From: Verrucomicrobiaceae bacterium
GTDB lineage: Bacteria > Verrucomicrobiota > Verrucomicrobiia > Verrucomicrobiales > Verrucomicrobiaceae
Length of the DNA: 64,000 nucleotides
Assembly (NCBI GenBank): GCA_947507875.1
Contig: CANNQP010000010.1
Location: 1 to 64,000 of the forward strand
Direction: 5' to 3'
This document shows, one piece after another, positions 44,802 through 47,499 of the stretch. Both the position numbers and the translations under genes were made by a program. The notes beneath the pieces were generated by a model. It saw only the letters and a list, made by a program, of their open reading frames with translations, did not search any database and was not told the origin of the DNA. Position 1 is the first letter of the stretch; each line of letters starts with the position of its first letter.

Positions 44802-44823
44802 TATTTGGCTATTTCGCCAAATA
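44802..44823 (+). promoter_or_regulatory. ArsR operator candidate
   Basis: TATTTGGC-TATTTC-GCCAAATA is a perfect 8-bp inverted repeat with a 6-base spacer, ending one base before the arsR ATG. The half-sites contain the ATTTG/CAAAT pattern reported for ArsR operators. Bound repressor would occlude the translation start region, which has no visible Shine-Dalgarno sequence. Confidence 0.65.
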
Positions 44824-44824
44824 G

Positions 44825-45136
44825 ATGCCAGCCAGCCGAACAACCTCTGAAAAACGCGCCCAAGTTATCAAGGCGCTGGCTCATCCCTCGCGGCTGCTCA
44901 TTGCAGAAGCCCTGCTCGATGGTGAGCAATGCGTCTGTGATCTTCAGGAGTTGGTCGGTGCTGACATGTCCACGGTGTCCAAGCATCTGAGCCTCATGCG
45001 TTCCGCCGGAGTGCTAGTCTGTGAGAAACGCGGGCTGAACATTTATTACCGACTCGCCTGCGGCTGCCTGGGGGATTTCCTTCGCTGCGTGGACCAGATG
45101 ACCCCGGCCCGACCTCGCCAAAAATCTTGCTGCTGA
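44825..45136 (+). CDS. arsR: ArsR family arsenite-responsive repressor
   Basis: Winged-helix repressor released by As(III)/Sb(III). The metalloid site ECVCDL-like motif is at 35-40 (EQCVCDLQELV, Cys36 and Cys38). The recognition helix is in MSTVSKHLSLMRSAGVL, and the wing is EKRGLNIYYRL. Further cysteines are at 66, 79, 81, 88 and a vicinal pair at 102-103 ends the protein. It has 103 residues, typical for the family. It is followed by DUF6428, aqpS and arsC in one direction with short gaps or overlaps. A palindrome sits directly before the start. The start is fixed by the absence of an alternative ATG and by homolog length. Confidence 0.92.
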   Translation: MPASRTTSEKRAQVIKALAHPSRLLIAEALLDGEQCVCDLQELVGADMSTVSKHLSLMRSAGVLVCEKRGLNIYYRLACGCLGDFLRCVDQMTPARPRQKSCC

Positions 45137-45141
45137 TTCCC

Positions 45142-45615
45142 ATGACCATCACTGAATTCCTCTCGCATCTCCGCGCTCATGCTGAAAAACCACTCGGTCT
45201 CTTGCTGCCGGATGGCGGTAGCATTGAGCCTCACTTCCACATCACCGAAGTGGGTCATGTGATGAAGCGCTTCATCGACTGCGGGGGAACTCGCCGAACG
45301 CAGGAGACCTGCCTGCTTCAGACCTGGGTGCATGAGGATGTGGATCATCGTCTATTCGCTGGCAAGCTAGCGACCATTTTCGACCGGGCAGGGGATGTTC
45401 TGCCACATCATGATCTACCGGTGGAAGTGGAGCACGAAGACGGTGTCGTGGCGCAATTTCCCGTGGACTCTGCGCTCTTGCTCGATGGCGTGCTCTATTT
45501 CCGTTTGGGCCAAAAACACACCGACTGCCTTGCGCGTGGCATTTGTCTTCCAGGTGAGTGTGCGCCTGCCCCCAAGGCAGCTTCGGTGTGCAAGCCTGGC
45601 TCGGGCTGCTGCTAG
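45142..45615 (+). CDS. DUF6428 family protein of the ars operon
   Basis: Protein of the DUF6428 family, found with arsR genes in many bacteria; function unknown. It is 157 residues from ATG 45142, five bases after the arsR stop; the ORF track starts at an upstream TTG. The pattern LLPDGGSIEPHFHITEVGHV with two histidines and the HLxHxDVDHRLFAGKLATIF region suggest a metal or metalloid-binding alpha/beta fold. The tail CxPGxGCC (SVCKPGSGCC) is cysteine-rich like those of its operon neighbours. Placement between the sensor and the channel suggests a role in arsenite handling. Confidence 0.75.
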   Translation: MTITEFLSHLRAHAEKPLGLLLPDGGSIEPHFHITEVGHVMKRFIDCGGTRRTQETCLLQTWVHEDVDHRLFAGKLATIFDRAGDVLPHHDLPVEVEHEDGVVAQFPVDSALLLDGVLYFRLGQKHTDCLARGICLPGECAPAPKAASVCKPGSGCC

Positions 45616-45627
45616 GCCTTCATTTGT

Positions 45628-46305
45628 ATGAAACGCTATTTCTCGGAACTGCTCGGTACCTTCATCCTGCTCTTTGCAGGCACGGGAGCCATCGTCATCA
45701 ATGCCACTAGCGGTGGCACCATCACTCACGCAGGCATCGCTTTAGTCTTTGGTTTGGTGGTCATGGCCATGATCTACACCTTTGGCGACACTAGCGGGGC
45801 GCATTTGAATCCCGCTGTGACGGTCGCCTTTGCCGTCGCCGGGCGTTTTTCCTGGCGTGAGGCACCTGGATATCTGCTGTCCCAGGGCATGGGGGCTTTG
45901 CTGGCCAGTGGCTTGCTGGCGCTTCTTTTTCCCGACCTACCCGCCAAGCTGGGGGCCACGCTGCCCAGTGGTCCTGTGATGCAGAGCTTCATCCTGGAAG
46001 TCGTGCTCACCTGCATCCTCATGCTGGTGATCCTGAGCGTGTCCACCGGAGCACAGGAAAAAGGCATCACCGCTGGCATCGCCATCGGAGGCGTCATTGC
46101 GCTAGAGGCCATGTTTGCTGGACCGATCTGCGGAGCCTCCATGAATCCTGTGCGTTCCTTGGCTCCTGCCCTCGTTTCTGGGCACCTTCAGCACCTGTGG
46201 ATCTACCTGGTCGCACCGGTCGCGGGAGCTCTCGCCGCCATACCACTTTGCATCGGTTGCCGCCCAGCAGGTTGCTGCTGCCTTGCAGATTCTTCCTCCT
46301 CATGA
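45628..46305 (+). CDS. aqpS: Aquaporin-family arsenite channel (AqpS-like)
   Basis: MIP-family channel in an ars operon; the AqpS type replaces ArsB/Acr3 and lets arsenite made by ArsC leave down its gradient. Six hydrophobic segments are recognisable. The two half-helix motifs are NPA ([12 protein letters not shown] near 65) and NPV ([14 protein letters not shown] near 172). A variant second motif is also known from plant NIP5;1-type boric acid/arsenite channels. The C-terminus [16 protein letters not shown] has four cysteines, unusual for an aquaporin. The stop overlaps the arsC start as ATGA, indicating translational coupling. It starts 12 bases after the DUF6428 stop. Confidence 0.85.
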
Positions 46306-46742
46306 CACCCACCATCCTCATCCTTTGCACTGGCAATTCATGCCGCTCTCATCTTGCCGAAGGCATTCTCCGCCAAGCGCTCGGTCCTGCCTTTCAAGTG
46401 GCCAGTGCAGGCTCGAAACCAGCCGGTTATGTTCATCCGTTGGCGATCCGAGCCATGGCTGAAATCGGCATCGACATCAGCGCGCATCGTTCCAAGCACC
46501 TCGACGAGTTCCTGTCTCAGTCGGTCGAAACCGTCATCACCGTCTGTGGCAATGCGGATCAGGCCTGCCCGATGTTTCCAGGGCAGGTGAATCGCCATCA
46601 TTGGGGCTTTGATGATCCCGCCCATGCCACAGGCACGGAGGAAGAGCAGATGCAGGTCTTTCGCCGCGTGCGCGATGAGATCCGCCGTGTCTTCCAGGCT
46701 TACGCCTCGGGGCGGCTGGATCAGCAGAAAGTCGTTGCCTAA
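46302..46742 (+). CDS. arsC: Arsenate reductase, LMW-phosphatase type
   Basis: Reduces As(V) to As(III). The P-loop [13 protein letters not shown] matches the LMW phosphatase-like ArsC of Staphylococcus pI258, with nucleophilic Cys at about residue 9. The second and third redox cysteines are in [14 protein letters not shown], consistent with the thioredoxin-coupled triple-cysteine mechanism. [11 protein letters not shown] carries the catalytic Asp loop. It has 146 residues from the ATG overlapping aqpS; the ORF track begins 35 codons earlier in the aqpS coding region. It completes the operon. Confidence 0.93.
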
Positions 46743-46812: not shown

Positions 46813-47499
46813 ATGACTGCCGCTAGCATCGCCGGTCTCCTGCCCGAACTTCTCATGCCGGAACCGGAATGGTCCCCCCTCGCTTCTGCCCCCGCCCTCG
46901 GCGGGGAGGCTGCTTCGTGCGATGAGGAAAGCGTTCGTCTGATGCTGCGAGTGAAAGAGGGCGATATTCGCGCCTTCGAGCGCCTTGTCGAACTGCATCA
47001 GGGCATGGTCATTGGCACGGCCACACGCATGTTGGGCAATGTGGATGACGCTCATGACATCGCCCAACAGCTCTTTTTGCGCATTTGGAAGAGTGCACCG
47101 CGCTATGAACCCACGGCGAAGTTCACGACCTGGATGTTCACCATCCTGAGGAATCTTGTCTTCAATGAAACCCGGCGTCGTGGTCGGCGGAAGGAAGTGG
47201 CACTGGAGACCGATCCTAACAGCGATGACACTCCGCAGAGGCAATACATCGACGCCACAAGTCCTGCGCCCGACCAGCACGTGCAGCATGATGAGCTAGA
47301 ATTGGCTTTGGAGAAAGCCATCGCGGCTTTGCCGGAAAAACAGCGCCTTGCCGTTGTGCTGCGTCGTCACGAAGAAATGCCCTACGAGCAGATCTGCAAG
47401 ATCCTGAAAATGTCTCTTCCCGCGCTGAAGAGCCTGCTTTTCCGTGCTCGCTTGGAGCTGCGCAAGCACCTCGCAGGTCATTTGGGTGACCACGACTAG
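46813..47499 (+). CDS. ECF-type RNA polymerase sigma factor
   Basis: Extracytoplasmic function sigma factor. Region 2 is DIRAFERLVELHQGMVIGTATRMLGNVDDAHDIAQQLFLRIWKSAPRYEPTAKFTTWMFTILRNLVFNETRRR, and region 4 is LPEKQRLAVVLRRHEEMPYEQICKILKMSLPALKSLLFRARLELR. An N-terminal tail of about 50 residues precedes region 2. The preferred start is ATG 46813 rather than the TTG four codons upstream. No anti-sigma or zinc-finger partner is adjacent. It lies 70 bases after arsC in the same direction but is probably a separate unit. A strong hairpin follows. Confidence 0.88.
   Translation: MTAASIAGLLPELLMPEPEWSPLASAPALGGEAASCDEESVRLMLRVKEGDIRAFERLVELHQGMVIGTATRMLGNVDDAHDIAQQLFLRIWKSAPRYEPTAKFTTWMFTILRNLVFNETRRRGRRKEVALETDPNSDDTPQRQYIDATSPAPDQHVQHDELELALEKAIAALPEKQRLAVVLRRHEEMPYEQICKILKMSLPALKSLLFRARLELRKHLAGHLGDHD

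Follow-up and report, generated by a model that had tools for sequence, protein, structure and literature searches.

Analysis of a 64,000-nucleotide stretch of a Verrucomicrobiaceae contig (CANNQP010000010.1; hereafter the window) revealed a genuine arsenic operon, arsR-DUF6428-aquaporin-arsC, in which the products of the first three genes end in vicinal-cysteine tails. Judged from sequence, these tails have an even chance of being independent As(III) thiol sites within an inducible arsenate-detoxification operon, an interpretation that we prefer, in descending order, to arsenic gating of the channel, to the binding of other metals or redox activity, and to a relay of arsenite between the proteins. 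There are precedents for operons of the arsR-aqp-arsC type, for bacterial channels that resemble NIPs and for ArsRs rich in cysteine. As far as the literature searched shows, what is new is the coupled, putatively tri-thiol tail of the ars aquaporin, and the combination in DUF6428 of a universal cysteine tail with an invariant core. The features of the locus are as follows.

44802..44823, no strand assigned: operator-like dyad TATTTGGC-N6-GCCAAATA, directly 5′ of arsR
44825..45136, + strand: arsR, ArsR/SmtB repressor of 103 residues (PF01022, E 8.5e-11; NF033788, 80.6 bits, cut-off 55)
45125..45133, + strand: terminal SCC of ArsR, read directly; the CC is aligned in homologs
45142..45615, + strand: DUF6428 gene, 157 residues (PF20001, E 1.3e-38; AlphaFold2 model, pLDDT 90)
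45589..45612, + strand: DUF6428 tail C150-KPGSG-C156-C157, conservation assessed in 84 homologs
45628..46305, + strand: NIP-like aquaporin (MIP), 225 residues (PF00230, E 1.3e-45; predicted filter F41/A161/A170/R176)
46249..46281, + strand: aquaporin cysteine tail C208, C211 and C216-C218 (TM6 helix 190-211 in the AlphaFold2 model; C208/CC coupling)
46302..46742, + strand: arsC, thioredoxin-type arsenate reductase (PF01451, E 5e-21), without a cysteine tail

The four genes are closely packed. Gaps of 5 and 12 nt separate arsR from the DUF6428 gene and the latter from the aquaporin gene, respectively, and the aquaporin and arsC genes overlap by 4 nt (ATGA). The ATG at 45142 is the preferred start of the DUF6428 gene; the alternative TTG at 45127 would produce an overlap with arsR. 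The ArsC protein scored 149.7 bits with TIGR02691, which is below the cut-off of 174.3, and its translation includes the P-loop CTGNSCRS and the segment CGNADQAC that constitute the catalytic cysteine patterns of thioredoxin-type enzymes. When the whole genome was scanned with up to one mismatch allowed, the dyad 5′ of arsR yielded a single match. Relatives have the same or a similar dyad ahead of most of their CC-tail arsR genes, and the element at 44802-44823 is probably the ArsR operator. A sigma-70 promoter scan gave no match. A gene for an ECF-type sigma factor (46813-47499) is located ~70 nt 3′ of arsC on the same strand.

The tails reported in the initial annotation were all present: ArsR ends in SCC (QKSCC), DUF6428 in CKPGSGCC, and the aquaporin terminus is rich in cysteine. 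The count of four cysteines given there for the last 20 residues of the aquaporin required amendment to five (C208, C211, C216, C217, and C218). Among 375 naive open reading frames taken from the window together with 400 kb of its genome, only six specify CC within the last 20 residues, and half of them are the consecutive arsR, DUF6428, and aquaporin genes. Conservation of the tail cysteines in homologs, which had been left to be checked, was found to unequal degrees in ArsR, DUF6428, and the aquaporin. CC tails were absent from homologs of ACR3 (0/20) and ArsC (0/74). Thus, the tails mark certain proteins and are not a property of ars operons generally.

The DUF6428 protein matches PF20001 with 132.7 bits (cut-off 28.7) over residues 4–157, such that the profile reaches the last residue. 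It matches records from Verrucomicrobiaceae and Prosthecobacter (71–80% identity), and the family was detected in 113 of 240 sampled genomes of the order. In 83 of 84 homologs from three phyla, CC occurs within the last 10 residues, with conservation of 96% for C150, 96% for C156, and 94% for C157. The spacing is C-x5-CC in 38 of these homologs and C-x6-CC in 23. Bacteroidota plasmids keep the pattern, and a Shinella plasmid has a diverged form of the tail. Residues H33, E36, D46, C47, G48, and C129 in the core are invariant in the 84 proteins and C135 is retained in 99%. The AlphaFold2 model has a confident core (mean pLDDT 90) and a tail of low confidence (pLDDT ~53). Neither sequence nor structure searches identified a relative of the fold in the PDB (best E 0.07), and the best BFVD match to the model was D4P7U3, an uncharacterized phage protein. 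Forty-three DUF6428 loci were collected by family search, free of aquaporin bias. Within 3 kb, ArsR was a neighbor in 37 of these loci, ArsC in 36, an aquaporin in 16, and ACR3 in 16. We infer for DUF6428 a role as a soluble protein that binds As(III) and serves whichever exit its operon encodes. The analogy is functional and is with the metallochaperone ArsD, which is likewise small, specified by ars operons and equipped with pairs of vicinal cysteines. However, DUF6428 belongs to a different family, the ArsD family was absent among the Pfam matches of DUF6428 members, and ArsA is not a regular neighbor of DUF6428. ArsD is an established chaperone (PMC6205960). No paper that names DUF6428 was found in the literature searched. 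This apparently unstudied family nevertheless occurs in about half of the sampled genomes of the order and in ars loci of three phyla. Through the invariant core and the cysteine tail, a possible new arsenite-binding family becomes directly testable.

The viral contigs that were searched contained no relative of DUF6428. A DUF6428 gene whose product has 43% identity and ends in CGVKGCC was found at 537-972 of L203, a 595-kb uncultured metagenomic huge-phage record (LR756511.1). The gene is near the end of the record and neither ArsR, ArsC, MIP, nor ACR3 was matched within the 7 kb that was read. A second record labeled Bacteriophage sp. (L204, MT836168.1) bears ACR3, ArsR, and DUF6428 genes in an arrangement that resembles Shinella and Roseateles plasmid loci, and perhaps is bacterial DNA mislabeled as phage.

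The cysteine tail of the aquaporin is more variable. A CC tail was present in 41 of 67 ars-type channels, compared to 2 of 34 other aquaporins, and the consensus in tailed ars-type homologs is PLCxGVRxxGCCGGxC. The tree of the 67 channels requires no fewer than 12 changes of tail state, which indicates that the tail is not essential. Cys-208 was retained in 40 of 41 CC-tailed channels, but in only 8 of 26 tailless ars-type channels (p = 2.7e-9). The next best association with CC among the 205 other columns was 2.5e-5, a comparison that serves as a rough control for shared ancestry. The pore residue C168 was considered as part of the tail site and rejected, there being no association with CC (p = 0.46). 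In the AlphaFold2 model, TM6 spans residues 190–211 with C208 in its last turn, and the tail beyond TM6 is disordered. The end of TM6 is on the cytoplasmic side in aquaporins. The coupling with CC and the placement of C208 at the end of TM6 suggest that C208, C216, and C217 are one tri-thiol set. Both CC-tailed exceptions among the other aquaporins are Akkermansia-like AqpZ proteins that end in GGCCCCC (L151) and CGCCCC (L152), and the short flanks fetched for them were free of ars genes. These tails advise caution, as such termini are not unique to arsenic. In two loci (L045 and L053), a short GACGAATGA-type repeat is located at the 3′ end of the aquaporin gene where relatives carry the cysteine tail, and in L053 a repeat of this type also seems to delete the start of arsC. 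A Priestia plasmid (L088, 2632-4639) specifies an aquaporin that is 54% identical to that of the window and which adjoins an annotated radical SAM protein with an RCCLKC tail. The latter is a further example of a cysteine tail in the context of arsenic, but on an unrelated enzyme, and the plasmid aquaporin ends in HEEE without cysteines, unlike the protein in the window.

The aquaporin possesses NPA (residues 61–63) and NPV (173–175) motifs. Its best match among solved structures was plant NIP2-1 (E 9e-43), compared to ~1e-21 for AqpZ and 3.5e-18 for GlpF, so that by PDB match the channel classifies as NIP-like, with AqpZ and GlpF both more distant. The name AqpS used in the initial annotation fits in denoting an ars-operon MIP between DUF6428 and arsC, but is loose in view of this match. 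In the comparison with NIP2-1/AqpN, the alignment to NIP2-1 stops at residue 204 and the cysteine tail falls outside the aligned part. According to a passage in PMC11316224 that cites Pommerrenig 2020, NIPs have been proposed to originate from bacterial arsenic detoxification. The predicted filter F41/A161/A170/R176 (F-A-A-R) is nearly constant in the 67 ars-type channels, whereas that of other aquaporins of the order is mostly F/H/T/R. No second MIP was found in this genome, and neither ACR3 nor ArsB was matched in it. Arsenite export therefore probably depends on the aquaporin, which probably is the main As(III) exit of the cell, although the metagenome-assembled genome is ~93% complete such that an efflux pump may have escaped detection. 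In Sinorhizobium meliloti AqpS, which is specified by an arsR-aqpS-arsC-arsH operon, and in the Salinispora AqpS-ArsC fusion, a MIP channel likewise shares an ars operon with ArsC and provides a passive exit for As(III) (PMC6205960, PMC9775063). The comparison with these systems is by operon context. The operon in the window departs from them in the insertion of DUF6428, in a channel of NIP-like type that has the F-A-A-R filter and ends in a cysteine tail, and in a 4-nt overlap of the channel gene with arsC in place of a fusion. A conserved, coupled tri-thiol at the cytoplasmic mouth, if real, would bear on the question of how a passive channel gives net arsenic resistance though also admitting external arsenite.

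In the independent-site interpretation that is preferred here, ArsC would convert As(V) to As(III), which would leave passively via the aquaporin, and the tails would furnish proteins that encounter arsenite in the cytosol with separate sites for As(III) or MAs(III). DUF6428 may be a cytosolic arsenite buffer or chaperone whose core (H33, E36, D46, C47, and C129/C135) and flexible C-x5-CC tail hold arsenite until exit, and C208 with C216-C217 of the aquaporin may form a tri-thiol at the cytoplasmic channel mouth that concentrates or senses arsenite. Independent sites are favored because DUF6428 keeps its tail beside tailless partners, tailed channels occur without DUF6428, and the association between the two fades on the tree. 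The initial annotation instead envisaged that DUF6428 perhaps hands arsenite to the aquaporin. Such a relay, in which As(III) would pass by thiol exchange to the channel tail as from ArsD to ArsA, is in keeping with the adjacency of the genes, with the C-xn-CC pattern common to both tails, and with the presence of a CC tail in 33 of 45 ars-type channels beside DUF6428 compared with 8 of 22 that are not (Fisher p = 0.007). However, a phylogenetic pair test of this association gave one well-supported (starred) independent pair, and eight pairs over all branches with a sign test p of 1. Moreover, 12 of the 45 channels beside DUF6428 are without a tail, DUF6428 retains its own tail beside tailless channels (L045, L046, L053, and L113) and adjoins tailless ACR3 as often as aquaporins (16 of 43 loci each), and tailed channels also occur without a neighboring DUF6428, including in genomes G461 and G476 which gave no match to the family. 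The relay thus is supported by neither co-occurrence nor the tree test and we give it little credence. What persists of the shared As(III)-gripping tail that was suggested initially is the conservation of the tail cysteines and a coupled three-cysteine set in the aquaporin that fits an As(III) site; the shared hand-over chain does not.

Gating of the channel is the strongest competitor to independent sites, albeit improbable. As(III) from the cytosol would bind the tri-thiol where TM6 ends and thereby open or close the channel, so that arsenite produced in the cell exits and inward flow is limited. The location of C208 within the final turn of TM6 and its covariation with the tail CC are consistent with this mechanism, as is the control of yeast Fps1 gating by the cytoplasmic termini of that channel (PMC11050377). 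An ordinary arsenite channel lets in external As(III) as well, and S. meliloti AqpS indeed confers sensitivity to external arsenite (PMC6205960). Nevertheless, the tail is missing in many homologs and is disordered in the model. A composite in which As(III) bridging of C208 with C216-C217 opens the sole exit of the cell to arsenite made inside it and resists inflow through a NIP-like aquaporin, and in which DUF6428 represents a novel cytosolic family of arsenite chaperones in at least three phyla, is judged less probable than gating by itself. The tails might instead bind another soft metal or serve as redox thiols. Vicinal thiols bind many metals, and the Akkermansia-type AqpZ proteins possess CC tails without ars neighbors in the flanks that were fetched, but DUF6428 and F-A-A-R channels are strongly restricted to ars loci and the tails are rare in the genome, which makes this alternative unlikely, although it ranks above the relay. 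That the cysteines occur by chance and share no meaning is very improbable: the aquaporin tail is variable and C-terminal cysteines are frequent in ArsR proteins, but half of the six CC-tailed open reading frames are consecutive, and conservation in homologs largely refutes this explanation.

The ArsR protein contains cysteines at positions 36 and 38 (CVCDL), 66, 79 and 81 (ACGC), 87, and 102 and 103. Among ArsRs specified next to DUF6428, CC was present in the C-terminal part of 63 of 74 proteins and at the very end of 35 of 74. The As(III) repressor ArArsR of Arsenicibacter rosenii has six conserved cysteines, two N-terminal, two in the middle and two late, and the ArsR in the window is similar with the addition of C66 and C87. 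Sensing by ArArsR does not require the tail cysteines, but C41, C80, and C82 are needed (PMC11868830). On the basis of these published mutants, the ArsR tail was set aside as a sensor; by analogy, C36 with C79/C81 is more likely to be the sensing site than the terminal pair. Residue C36 matches ArArsR C41 by its CxC motif. Placed via aligned Bacteroidota ArsRs, C79/C81 are ~5 residues after the positions of the CxC pair C80/C82, a shift that makes the As(III) site analogous to that of ArArsR with identity unproven. A short C-terminal CC-x5-C peptide of AfArsR (C95, C96, and C102) binds As(III) (PMC11212059), but that is a tri-thiol site, whereas the ArsR in the window has a terminal pair without a third cysteine nearby. 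Two main ArsR layouts were discerned, ACxCL plus a terminal CC, as in the window, and SCCPGP, each with a different operator dyad. The second operator, CGTAAC(G)-spacer-(C)GTTACG, was found 5′ of arsR in L055, L063, and L074, in each case paired with the SCCPGP class.
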